From the NCBI RefSeq assembly GCF_009649635.1, contig NZ_WJII01000006.1:62001-126000 (forward strand): 64,000 nt of DNA, written 5' to 3'. The DNA comes from Microbacterium sp. SYP-A9085 (GTDB taxonomy: Bacteria > Actinomycetota > Actinomycetes > Actinomycetales > Microbacteriaceae). The notes below the pieces were generated by a model, which was given only the letters and a program-made list of their open reading frames with translations, was not told the DNA's origin and did not search any database. Shown here one piece after another: positions 57,526 through 61,291 of this stretch (position 1 is the first letter of the stretch; every line of letters starts with the position of its first letter). The translations under genes were made by a program, and so were the position numbers.

Positions 57526-58817
57526 CCGGGTGGGCGACGGTGCTGCGGGCGGCGCGCCCCGAGCGGGTCGGCCGGGTTTCGCAGGTGCGCGGGCTGAGCG
57601 TGGCGGTGCAGGGCCTGGACTGCGCGGTCGGCGACCTCGTGGCGCTCGGCGACGGGCGGCGCGCCGAGGTGGTCGCCACCGGCGACGACGGGCTGCGCTG
57701 CATGCCCCTCGCATCCGCGGTGGGCCTCACGGTGGGTGCGCCGGCGCGGCGCCTCGGCGGGCCGCTCCGCGTCCCGGTCGGACCGGAGCTGCTCGGACGC
57801 GTGATCGACGGCCTGGGCCGGCCGATCGACGGCCGCGGACCCCTGCGTGCGCGCCGTGTGAGCCTGGACCACGAGCCGCCGTCGGTCATGGGACGGGACC
57901 GCATAGCGGCGCCGCTGACCCTCGGCGTGCGCGCCATCGACACACTGACCACCGTCGGTCAGGGGCAGCGCGTGGGGCTGTTCGCCGGCTCGGGGGTCGG
58001 CAAGTCGTCGCTGCTGTCGATGATCGCGCGGGGGACGACGGCGGATGCCGCGGTGATAGCGCTCGTCGGCGAGCGCGGCCGCGAGGTGCGCGAGTTCATC
58101 GAGGACGACCTCGGCCCCGAGGGCCTGGCGCGCGCGGTGGTCGTGGTCTCGACATCCGATGAGCCGGCGATGACCCGGATGCGGGCGGCGTTCACGGCGA
58201 CCCGGATCGCGGAGGCGTTCCGCGACACCGGCGCCCACGCCGTCCTGATGATGGACTCGCTCACGCGGGTCGCGATGGCCCAGCGCGAGATCGGGCTGTC
58301 GGCCGGCGAGCCGCCCGCCACCCGCGGGTATCCGCCATCGACGTTCGCACTGCTGGCGCGGCTCCTGGAGCGGGCGGGCACGGACCGGTCCGGGTCGGTC
58401 ACCGGCATCTACACGGTGCTCGTGGACGGCGACGACCACAACGAGCCGATCGCCGACGCGGTGCGCTCGATCCTCGACGGGCACATAGTGCTCGACCGTG
58501 CGCTCGCGCTGAGCGGTCATCATCCCTCCATCGACGTGCTCGGCTCGGTGTCGCGCGTGGCGGGCAAGGTCACGACGGCCGAGCAGCGCGGCCTGGTCGC
58601 AGCGCTGCGCGCGGTGCTGGCGGCGCGGCGCGGCGCGAACGACCTCATCGATATCGGCGCGTATCAGTCCGGCGCCAACCCGCGCGTGGATGCCGCCATC
58701 GCGAACGAGCGCGCGATCGTCGACTTCCTCACCCAGCCGCTGGACCAGACGAGTCCGGCGGATGAGTCGTGGCGCCGGCTCGCGGCGCTCGTGGCGAGCT
58801 TCGGAGGTGTCGTATGA
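57522..58817 (+). CDS. fliI: Flagellum-specific ATP synthase FliI
   Basis: A 431-residue hexameric export ATPase. Walker A is F-A-G-S-G-V-G-K-S. L-M-M-D-S-L-T-R-V-A-M-A-Q-R-E-I and G-E-P-P-A-T-R-G-Y-P-P-S are diagnostic of FliI/type III ATPases. The GTG start is at 57522, overlapping fliH. It drives export of rod, hook and filament subunits. Confidence 0.96.
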   Translation: MTGWATVLRAARPERVGRVSQVRGLSVAVQGLDCAVGDLVALGDGRRAEVVATGDDGLRCMPLASAVGLTVGAPARRLGGPLRVPVGPELLGRVIDGLGRPIDGRGPLRARRVSLDHEPPSVMGRDRIAAPLTLGVRAIDTLTTVGQGQRVGLFAGSGVGKSSLLSMIARGTTADAAVIALVGERGREVREFIEDDLGPEGLARAVVVVSTSDEPAMTRMRAAFTATRIAEAFRDTGAHAVLMMDSLTRVAMAQREIGLSAGEPPATRGYPPSTFALLARLLERAGTDRSGSVTGIYTVLVDGDDHNEPIADAVRSILDGHIVLDRALALSGHHPSIDVLGSVSRVAGKVTTAEQRGLVAALRAVLAARRGANDLIDIGAYQSGANPRVDAAIANERAIVDFLTQPLDQTSPADESWRRLAALVASFGGVV

Positions 58818-59236
58818 GCCGTGCTTTTTCCCTTGCGGGGCTGCTGCGGGTGCGGAGCGTGCAGGAGCGCGAGGCCGCGCAGCGGCTGTCGCGGGCGGCC
58901 GTGGAGGCCAGCCAGACGCAGGCGCGCGACCGGCACCTGCGGGCGGCGCTCGGCGATGCCGGATCGGGCCCGCAGGACGGCCGCACGCTGGCCGCCCTCG
59001 CGGCATCCCGTGCCGCGGGGCGTGCACTGCTGACGGAACTGCGGGTTGTCGCGCAGCTGCAGGAGCAGACCCTCAGCGACGCGCGCGCCGTGCACGACAC
59101 GCGCCGGCGCGAGGTGCGGGGGCTGGAGAAGCTCGCGCACGCGCACCTGCTCGAGGTGCGCGCGGAAGCGCTGCGGGCCGAGCAGAAGGAGCTTGACGAG
59201 ATAGCATCCCGCACCCACCCCGGGGAGGACGCATGA
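58814..59236 (+). CDS. fliJ: Flagellar export protein FliJ
   Basis: A 140-residue coiled-coil protein (S-L-A-G-L-L-R-V-R-S-V-Q-E-R-E-A-A-Q-R-L, then long Ala/Arg/Leu/Glu helices). It fits the FliJ stalk that sits in the FliI ring. The start overlaps fliI by four bases. Sequence conservation is low, as usual, and position supports the call. Confidence 0.87.
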   Translation: MSRAFSLAGLLRVRSVQEREAAQRLSRAAVEASQTQARDRHLRAALGDAGSGPQDGRTLAALAASRAAGRALLTELRVVAQLQEQTLSDARAVHDTRRREVRGLEKLAHAHLLEVRAEALRAEQKELDEIASRTHPGEDA

Positions 59237-59291
59237 CGTCTCGTGGCGCGGCCCTCGGCCCGGCCGAGGGGATCGGCCGAGGCGAGGACGT

Positions 59292-59558
59292 AAAGGGCGG
59301 GTTCGGCCCTCGGCTCGGCCATTCTCCTCGGCTCGGGCGAGGGGATGACGCCATGAGCATCGCGAACCTGCTGGCATCGGCATCCGGCGCCAGGAACCCC
59401 GCGGCCCGCGGTGGCGGGCCACGCGGCTCCGGGCCCTCGGCCCGGGCGAGGATTTCGGCCGAGGCGAGGGCGCAAAGGGCGGATTCGGCCCTCGGCTCGG
59501 CCATTCTCCTCGGCTCGGGCGAGGGGATGACGCCATGAGCATCGCGAACCTGCTGGCA
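59292..59558 (+). repeat. Near-perfect duplication of the fliK start region (182-bp shift)
   Basis: Bases 59292-59376 and 59474-59558 are identical over 85 positions except one. Each includes the leader, ATG and first codons of fliK (ATG at 59353 and 59535). The shift of 182 bases is not a multiple of three, so the upstream copy opens a short, different frame and cannot be an N-terminal extension. The flanking GGCCGAGGCGAGG is also shared. This fills the 298-base fliJ-fliK gap. Confidence 0.92.
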
Positions 59559-60857
59559 ACCCCGCCCAGCGGCGGGAAGAACACGAGCCCCGCGGGTTCG
59601 GCCGCGAAGCCCGACCACGCCACCGCGTTCGCGGACGCACTGCAGGGCATCCTCGGCATCGAGAACACCGCGCCCGAGGGCACGGTCGCGGACGGAACCG
59701 ATGCCAACCCGGGGCAGTCGGGGGATGCCGCGCCCGGCACTGTCGCAGCTGCGCTGCTTGCGCTCGGGGTGCCGGCCGACGGCACGGGGCCGGCGGCCTC
59801 CGCACAGGCGGCATCCGCCACCGAGGCTGCCACAGACGGCACCGCGGCCTTGCCCACAGCGGCTGCCGCTGTCACTGCAGCCGGCACCTCGACAGCCACC
59901 GCCATCCTGGCTGCCGCACCGGCTGTCGCCGCGGCCCACAGCGACGGCGCGACGACTCCATCCACGTCCGGGGCGTCCATACTGTTGACGACGGATGCCG
60001 CCGCATCGGGCGCAGTTTCGGGATCCGCCGCGGCATCGGGATCCGCTGGGGCATCCACCGCGGTTGCCGGACTCGCCACGGCAGCAGCATCCCCCTCCCC
60101 CGCCACCGGGACCGACACGGGCACAGCACCAGCCCCCGCCGTCCCCGCACCCAGCAGCCCAGCCGCCGCGGCGATCGGCACCCCCGCGGTAACCGCGCAC
60201 GCGGCCGCGACGACCTCGTCGTCTCCCGCGGCATCCCCGCATCCCCCAACCGACTCGGCGGCATCCGCGCACCCGGCACCAGCCACCCCAACCCCCTTCA
60301 CCAACCCGCGGATCGCGTCCGACGCAGCCCCGGCCGCCGCACCCATTCCGGCCGCCGGAGCGACTGCGCCCCCCGCCGCCCCCGCCCCGGCTGCCGCGTC
60401 CGCCGCCGCACGGCCCGCGCTCGCGCCGCAGCTGTCCGCGCCGATCGTCTCGCTCGCGCAGGCGCCGGACGGCGACCACCGCATCACGCTCACCGTGTCT
60501 CCCGAGAACCTCGGCCCGGTCACGCTGCGTGCGCACGTCGCCGACGGCACCATCCGCGTCGAGCTGCACGCTCCCACCGACGTCGGCCGCGACGCGCTGC
60601 GCGCGATTCTCACCGACCTGCGCCGCGACCTGGCGGCCGCCGCTCCCCAGGCATCCCTCACCGTCTCCACGGGCGACGCGGGCGGGGCTCCGACGGGCCA
60701 CCACGGCGCCAGCCTCGCCGGCCAGCACGGCGGCGGCCCGGGCGGGCAGCACGCCGGCCGACCCGGCGGACCCGGACCCCACCGCGACCCGCCCCGCGCG
60801 GAGCCGCCGCCGCATCCCGCCGGTGACCGCGTATCCGGAATCGACATCTTCGCCTGA
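59535..60857 (+). CDS. fliK: Flagellar hook-length control protein FliK
   Basis: A 440-residue protein. About 300 residues are Ala/Thr/Ser/Pro-rich low complexity, as expected for the molecular ruler. The C-terminal Flg_hook domain is clear: H-R-I-T-L-T-V-S-P-E-N-L-G-P-V-T-L-R, then V-E-L-H-A-P-T and R-A-I-L-T-D-L-R-R-D-L. A His/Gly-rich tail ends the protein. ATG 59535 is the downstream of two duplicated starts and the only one in frame. It switches export from hook to filament subunits. Confidence 0.92.
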   Translation: MSIANLLATPPSGGKNTSPAGSAAKPDHATAFADALQGILGIENTAPEGTVADGTDANPGQSGDAAPGTVAAALLALGVPADGTGPAASAQAASATEAATDGTAALPTAAAAVTAAGTSTATAILAAAPAVAAAHSDGATTPSTSGASILLTTDAAASGAVSGSAAASGSAGASTAVAGLATAAASPSPATGTDTGTAPAPAVPAPSSPAAAAIGTPAVTAHAAATTSSSPAASPHPPTDSAASAHPAPATPTPFTNPRIASDAAPAAAPIPAAGATAPPAAPAPAAASAAARPALAPQLSAPIVSLAQAPDGDHRITLTVSPENLGPVTLRAHVADGTIRVELHAPTDVGRDALRAILTDLRRDLAAAAPQASLTVSTGDAGGAPTGHHGASLAGQHGGGPGGQHAGRPGGPGPHRDPPRAEPPPHPAGDRVSGIDIFA

Positions 60858-60871
60858 CGCGAGAGGACACC

Positions 60872-61291
60872 ATGACCACGATCAGCCCCGTCGGCCCCTC
60901 CGGTATCTACACCGGGGGCACCGTCCCGACCACCGAGCGCAAGCAGACCCTCGACGCCGAGGTATTCCTCAAGCTGCTCGTCACGCAGCTGGCCAACCAG
61001 GACCCGAGCTCGCCGATGAACACCAACGAGATGATCTCGCAGACCACCCAGCTGGCCTCCATGGAGCAGCTCACGGCACTGTCCACCACGACGACCGAGA
61101 GCTTCGCACTCGGCATGCGCCAGGCCGCCACCGCCCTGATCGGGCAGGAGGCGCGGTACCTCGACGGCGCCGGTGTCGAACAGTCCGGCACCGTCACCGC
61201 CATCTCGTTCGCCGGCACCGTGCCGCAGGTCACGATCGGCGACGCCACCATCCCGCTCGACGCCGTGTCGGGCCTGTCCCTCCGTTCCTGA
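60872..61291 (+). CDS. flgD: Flagellar hook assembly protein FlgD
   Basis: A 139-residue hook cap protein. E-V-F-L-K-L-L-V-T-Q-L-A-N-Q-D-P-S-S-P-M-N and Q-T-T-Q-L-A-S-M-E-Q-L are the FlgD N-terminal hallmarks. The C-terminal beta domain is short (V-T-A-I-S-F-A-G, T-I-P-L-D-A-V), as in Gram-positive FlgD. GAGAGGA precedes ATG 60872. Confidence 0.94.
   Translation: MTTISPVGPSGIYTGGTVPTTERKQTLDAEVFLKLLVTQLANQDPSSPMNTNEMISQTTQLASMEQLTALSTTTTESFALGMRQAATALIGQEARYLDGAGVEQSGTVTAISFAGTVPQVTIGDATIPLDAVSGLSLRS

Follow-up and report, generated by a model that had tools for sequence, protein, structure and literature searches.

A dispersed 93-bp palindromic element at the fliJ-fliK junction of Microbacterium sp. 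SYP-A9085 and its probable doubling together with the start of fliK

The flagellar genes fliJ, fliK and flgD follow one another on the forward strand of the window, the 64,000-nucleotide stretch of Microbacterium sp. SYP-A9085 DNA analysed here, and two copies of a 93-bp element are found between fliJ and fliK (Table 1). The stop codon of fliJ overlaps the start codon of a leader open reading frame (ORF) in the sequence ATGA, and no Pfam match was found for this leader ORF. The start assigned to fliK is backed by the likeness of its N-terminus to that of Microbacterium elymi (MSIANLLA here, VSIASLIA in M. elymi). ATG codons occur in both copies of a doubled block, at 59353 and 59535, and only the latter opens fliK, in agreement with the original prediction that the downstream copy alone is in frame with this gene. 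The start of fliJ itself (58814-58817) was observed to overlap the stop codon of the preceding ORF (ATGA), giving two start-stop overlaps in succession.

Table 1. Features annotated at the fliJ-fliK junction (positions in the window).
Feature	Position	Strand	Evidence
fliJ	58814..59236	+	Pfam FliJ, E 4.4e-6, 27.4 bits, just under the curated cut-off of 28.4; 70% identical to M. elymi
Leader ORF, 101 codons, from the fliJ stop through both elements to the fliK start codon (ATGA)	59233..59538	+	Frame reading
Block copy 1: element ending in Shine-Dalgarno-like GAGGGG (59339-59344), ATG at 59353, first eight codons	59250..59376	+	Sequence comparison
Element copy 1, 93-bp palindromic dispersed	59252..59344	+	Covariance model, E 1.9e-17 (copy among the training sequences of the model)
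Spacer between block copies	59377..59431	+	No significant likeness to fliK 3' of copy 2 or to the M. elymi upstream flank
Block copy 2: element ending in GAGGGG (59521-59526), ATG at 59535, first eight fliK codons	59432..59558	+	Sequence comparison
Element copy 2, 93-bp palindromic dispersed, in front of fliK	59434..59526	+	Covariance model, E 4.8e-17 (copy among the training sequences of the model)
fliK, hook-length control protein, 440 aa	59535..60857	+	Pfam Flg_hook, E 2.3e-10
flgD, gene after fliK	60872..61291	+	Pfam FlgD, E 1.8e-17

Positions 59292-59376 and 59474-59558 are equal at 84 of 85 bases at an offset of 182, with the sole mismatch at 59301, as originally predicted for an 85-bp block repeated 182 bp apart. 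The likeness was found to extend further than predicted, reaching left to 59250, so that 59250-59376 and 59432-59558 agree at 120 of 127 bases, a match far above chance. All seven mismatches lie between 59264 and 59301 and are followed by a clean run of 75 bases, which has a chance of 0.012 given seven mismatches in 127; the mismatches are clustered (seven in 52 bases). From 59377 the likeness is lost sharply, with eight mismatches in the next 20 bases. Since 93 of the 127 bases belong to a repeat that is present elsewhere in the same genome, it is the sequence beyond the element, where 32 of 32 bases are common to both copies (59345-59376 and 59527-59558), that identifies a local duplication. 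A plain duplication followed by even drift would fit imperfectly, the mismatches being clustered; gene conversion may have played a part, or the left arm may be a different one. The left arm of element copy 1 has its best match in the element at position 751103 of contig C1 (36/38), ahead of copy 2 (33/38). Tandem duplication of the full 182 bp, spacer included, was rejected because the spacer shows no significant likeness to the fliK downstream sequence: when tested as 59378-59433, its comparison with fliK downstream of copy 2 was equalled or exceeded in score by 120 of 500 shuffles, and that with the M. elymi upstream flank by 75 of 500.

A nucleotide search of the genome with positions 59233-59594 returned 22 further matches with 70-83% identity on both strands. 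Fifteen copies, both window copies among them, align without gaps over 93 bases, and each of these folds into a long imperfect hairpin. The covariance model finds at least 20 places of full length, 17 of them strong and three weaker, and three fragments; 15 of the 20 places trained the model, and the count may be low as 150 of the 7076 candidates were scored. The leader is therefore mostly a dispersed palindromic element, similar to miniature inverted-repeat transposable elements (MITEs). When ORFs at the 20 places were chosen by the GC3 rule, two places fall in the leader ORF, one in an ABC-transporter gene and 12 outside ORFs, while the remaining five overlap an ORF of doubtful start or reality (L099, L101, L102, L107 and the second of L110). 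The neighbouring genes have no common function according to a Pfam comparison of 20 proteins, three of which had no family at 1e-6; the families found include luciferase-like monooxygenase, kynureninase, ketoacyl synthase, adenylosuccinate synthetase, CofD, HemD and Nramp. Three pairs of places lie less than 300 bp apart, against 0.04 expected for random placement. Only the fliK pair among them has flanking sequence in common, the flanks of the other two showing no clear likeness (13/25 and 8/25; 6/25 and 8/25). These two other pairs (L111:1555-1840 and L112:1575-1905) are spaced 193 and 238 bp apart.

The copy in the ABC-transporter gene (675 aa; C5:439439-439531, L106:1540-1632) is in frame and occupies codons about 350-381, in the linker between the membrane and ATPase domains. 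The protein carrying it would be functional, judging from its intact domains. The same element was found in the linker of congener G011 and in a degenerate version in M. elymi, and among the other ten relatives aligned the linker differs in both length and sequence. The M. elymi ABC-transporter gene (L117:443-2440) matches in several pieces, as if frameshifted; this genome is listed as 68% complete and sequence errors are possible.

The covariation term is close to zero (0.11) when the 15 copies of this genome are compared, so that the palindrome appears to be kept there mainly as sequence. When 37 copies from three genomes were aligned, one long hairpin was found to pair 84.8% of cells, and a model with separate terminal hairpins and the same inner stem 88.2%. 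Both models surpass every one of 500 shuffles in cells paired and in covariation score, but not in the two measures based on counts of pairs or of types, and relatedness of the copies can produce such an excess. The row orientations of the alignment were chosen by hand. The terminal hairpins alone pair 95.4% and 96.9% of cells in these 37 copies, and nine and seven copies are unpaired at the two covarying terminal pairs. A known RNA family was rejected for the region, as the only Rfam match in window positions 59000-59800 was a chance-level miRNA match scoring 20 bits where the cut-off is 94 and none was over the gathering score.

We infer that mobility of the element was the origin of the dispersed copies. 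A perfect 11-bp direct repeat abuts one M. elymi copy (1378003), as a target-site repeat would. Shared flanking words of at least seven bases were found in four of 28 copies, compared with 1.5% in mismatched flanks, and three of these four do not abut exactly; the other 24 copies have no flanking repeat of seven or more. A search for a RAYT-type transposase (Y1_Tnp, PF01797) was negative in this genome and positive in five of 14 control genomes.

In the covariance search of the genus, 41 of 148 sampled congeners match at E <= 1e-3 and nine of 148 at E <= 1e-6, with the SYP-A9085 genome counted separately. The strongest sets of elements were found in M. elymi KUDC0405 (G114), G117, G077, G121 and G011, and many of the remaining congener matches are weak, possibly chance or remote ones. 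In a family sample, one of 149 other genomes matches at E <= 1e-6, weakly. Congener G117 was observed to have 14 element places (L162-L174), most of them of a second subtype and three inside a long ORF by a GC3-type rule. In this subtype the terminal palindromes are altered on both sides (G-C to C-G) and self-complementarity is largely kept. Six of the eight M. elymi element places listed match places in the SYP-A9085 genome, namely the fliJ-fliK junction and five others, and most copies therefore look inherited rather than currently jumping. M. elymi also has a close pair of elements (L113:1504-1596 and 1696-1788), which are 192 bp apart and 92/93 identical, the first being flanked by the perfect 11-bp direct repeat; this pair suggests fairly recent movement.

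The fliJ-fliK junction was compared among relatives after a FliJ search of 366 genus genomes, in which 43 match at E <= 1e-30 with SYP-A9085 included. Junctions were read in 56 relatives, comprising the 42 at this threshold and 14 more distant ones. In 47 of the 56 (18/25, 19/19 and 10/12), the next ORF of at least 250 codons, putatively fliK, starts four bases before the end of fliJ. Among the resulting 57 fliJ-fliK loci, the element occurs at the junction only in SYP-A9085, twice, and in M. elymi, once, the next best match having an E value of 0.36. Because the element is restricted to these two genomes and the overlap is found in most relatives, the element was probably at the junction before the split from M. 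elymi. One insertion before this split is the simplest reading, separate insertions at the same junction being a possible one. The doubled block itself was seen in none of the 56 relatives. The two element copies agree mutually at 86/93 positions and with the M. elymi element at 74/93 and 73/93, which supports a doubling that followed the M. elymi split or copies that have been homogenised since then; the one-copy state of M. elymi could also have arisen by deletion. The prediction of a recent event or conversion from the near identity of the copies holds to this extent, as a local duplication dated relative to the M. elymi split, while the nature of the leader as a dispersed element had been missed.

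The frame of the first ATG opens at 59233 on the fliJ stop and ends with the TGA at 59536-59538, which overlaps the fliK ATG. The earlier claim that this ATG leads ribosomes into a dead frame was not borne out, as the frame ends on fliK's own start in an arrangement suited to coupling. In M. elymi, a 52-aa ORF from the fliJ stop crosses the single element and ends on the fliK GTG (GTGA). The distance from the end of fliJ to the start of fliK is 298 bases here and 151 in M. elymi, and the difference of 147 is a multiple of three. The start-stop chain from fliJ through the leader ORF to fliK can be read as relayed translational coupling, a reading that is suggestive only, because over half of shuffles leave the leader frame open and the observed phase would arise by chance in one case out of three. 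An open leader frame was accordingly rejected as a sign of selection (1150/2000 shuffles open). No report of fliJ-fliK coupling was found in the open-access literature searched.

The predicted opening cost from folding is 18.0 kcal/mol at the fliK start with two copies and 24.1 at the first start (59353). Sixteen other starts in the window, with start codons picked by a simple rule, range from 6.9 to 26.4 kcal/mol, and an unusual hairpin occlusion of the fliK start was rejected as its cost falls inside this range. Over four stretch lengths, an in-silico one-copy version opens at 23.9-27.3 kcal/mol compared to 17.8-19.3 for two copies. The single-copy fliK start of M. elymi, for which a slightly different stretch was folded, has an opening cost of 19.5. 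If anything, the doubling would make the fliK start easier to open, a small and purely predicted effect, and we infer that it is nearly neutral for FliK output. Folding gives no support to the suggestion that the upstream ATG lowers FliK synthesis.

These observations probably reflect an ancestral insertion of a MITE-like element that was later doubled in one lineage together with the fliK start, with coupling retained. The 93-bp palindromic element would have inserted between fliJ and fliK in the common ancestor with M. elymi and parted two genes whose start and stop codons overlap in most relatives; the right end of the element carries the Shine-Dalgarno-like GAGGGG beside the present fliK start. 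In the lineage of Microbacterium sp. SYP-A9085, the element and the next 32 bases, through the eighth fliK codon, would then have been doubled 182 bp apart, leaving the downstream copy to start fliK and the upstream copy embedded in the leader ORF. Ribosomes leaving fliJ would probably still reach fliK by the relay.

The order of these events would be different if the doubling were old and predated the M. elymi split, with the copies kept alike by gene conversion and one of them lost from M. elymi by recombination. Direct repeats spaced 182 bp apart can in principle readily undergo deletion, and the clustered mismatches fit conversion of the right part; however, this reading needs the extra loss and has to account for copies far more alike than either is to the M. 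elymi element, and we consider it unlikely. Two independent insertions at the junction without any duplication are very improbable, as the fliK pair has all 32 bases beyond the element in common, fliK codons included, even though close pairs recur in this genome and the other two are without a clear common flank. The proposal that a recent duplication created a decoy start, which lowers FliK and alters hook length, draws on the presence of the same Shine-Dalgarno-like sequence and ATG in copy 1 as in copy 2. It appears improbable to us, given that the decoy frame stops at the start of fliK, that the first start is predicted to be costlier to open than the real one and that having one copy in silico raises the opening cost instead of lowering it. 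Repeats can cause misassembly, but an assembly artefact is the least probable of the explanations because the copies differ at seven sites and have unlike outer flanks; the site is also well away from the ends of its 219,902-bp contig.

With insertion followed by lineage-specific doubling as the preferred reading, an odd flagellar-gene start becomes a case of a dispersed palindrome taking over a translation start in an operon of overlapping genes. Should the coupling reading be true, it would show how such elements can be tolerated at start-stop overlaps, and the element family could mark genome change in Microbacterium. The element is of a known kind, MITE-like and with a coding copy like those of Rickettsia palindromic elements (RPEs), and its family is apparently undescribed in the open-access literature searched.

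The element resembles REP and BIME repeats in being palindromic, often located outside genes and sometimes found in close pairs. REPs are however 20-40 bp in length according to PMC3733652, and a REP with RAYT was rejected for the 93-bp element, which has no GTAG-type tag at its consensus ends and no RAYT-type (Y1_Tnp) transposase in its genome. The resemblance to MITEs extends to its size, within the 70-300 bp given for MITEs in the same paper, its self-complementary inverted repeats, its dispersal, the lack of a transposase gene within it and the 11-bp direct repeat at one M. elymi copy. It differs from them in that most copies have no visible target duplication (24/28 without a shared word of at least seven) and in that the search for a parent transposon, which covered the RAYT type (PF01797) only, found none. 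RPEs are described in PMC3733652 and PMC10969869 as palindromic dispersed repeats found in frame inside protein genes, and the in-frame copy of a short dispersed palindrome in the ABC-transporter linker recalls this description. They are however about 150 bp long in the latter paper, as opposed to 93 bp here, and belong to another phylum; in SYP-A9085, moreover, 12 of 20 copies lie outside ORFs and only the ABC-transporter copy is clearly inside a protein by the GC3 rule. As a tentative possibility, Microbacterium may have its own family of mobile palindromes, 31 codons long and compatible with the reading frame, as the actinobacterial equivalent of the RPEs; these elements would settle in translated DNA such as the ABC-transporter linker and the fliJ-fliK overlap, supply a Shine-Dalgarno sequence, keep coupling and at times be doubled with the first codons of a neighbouring gene.
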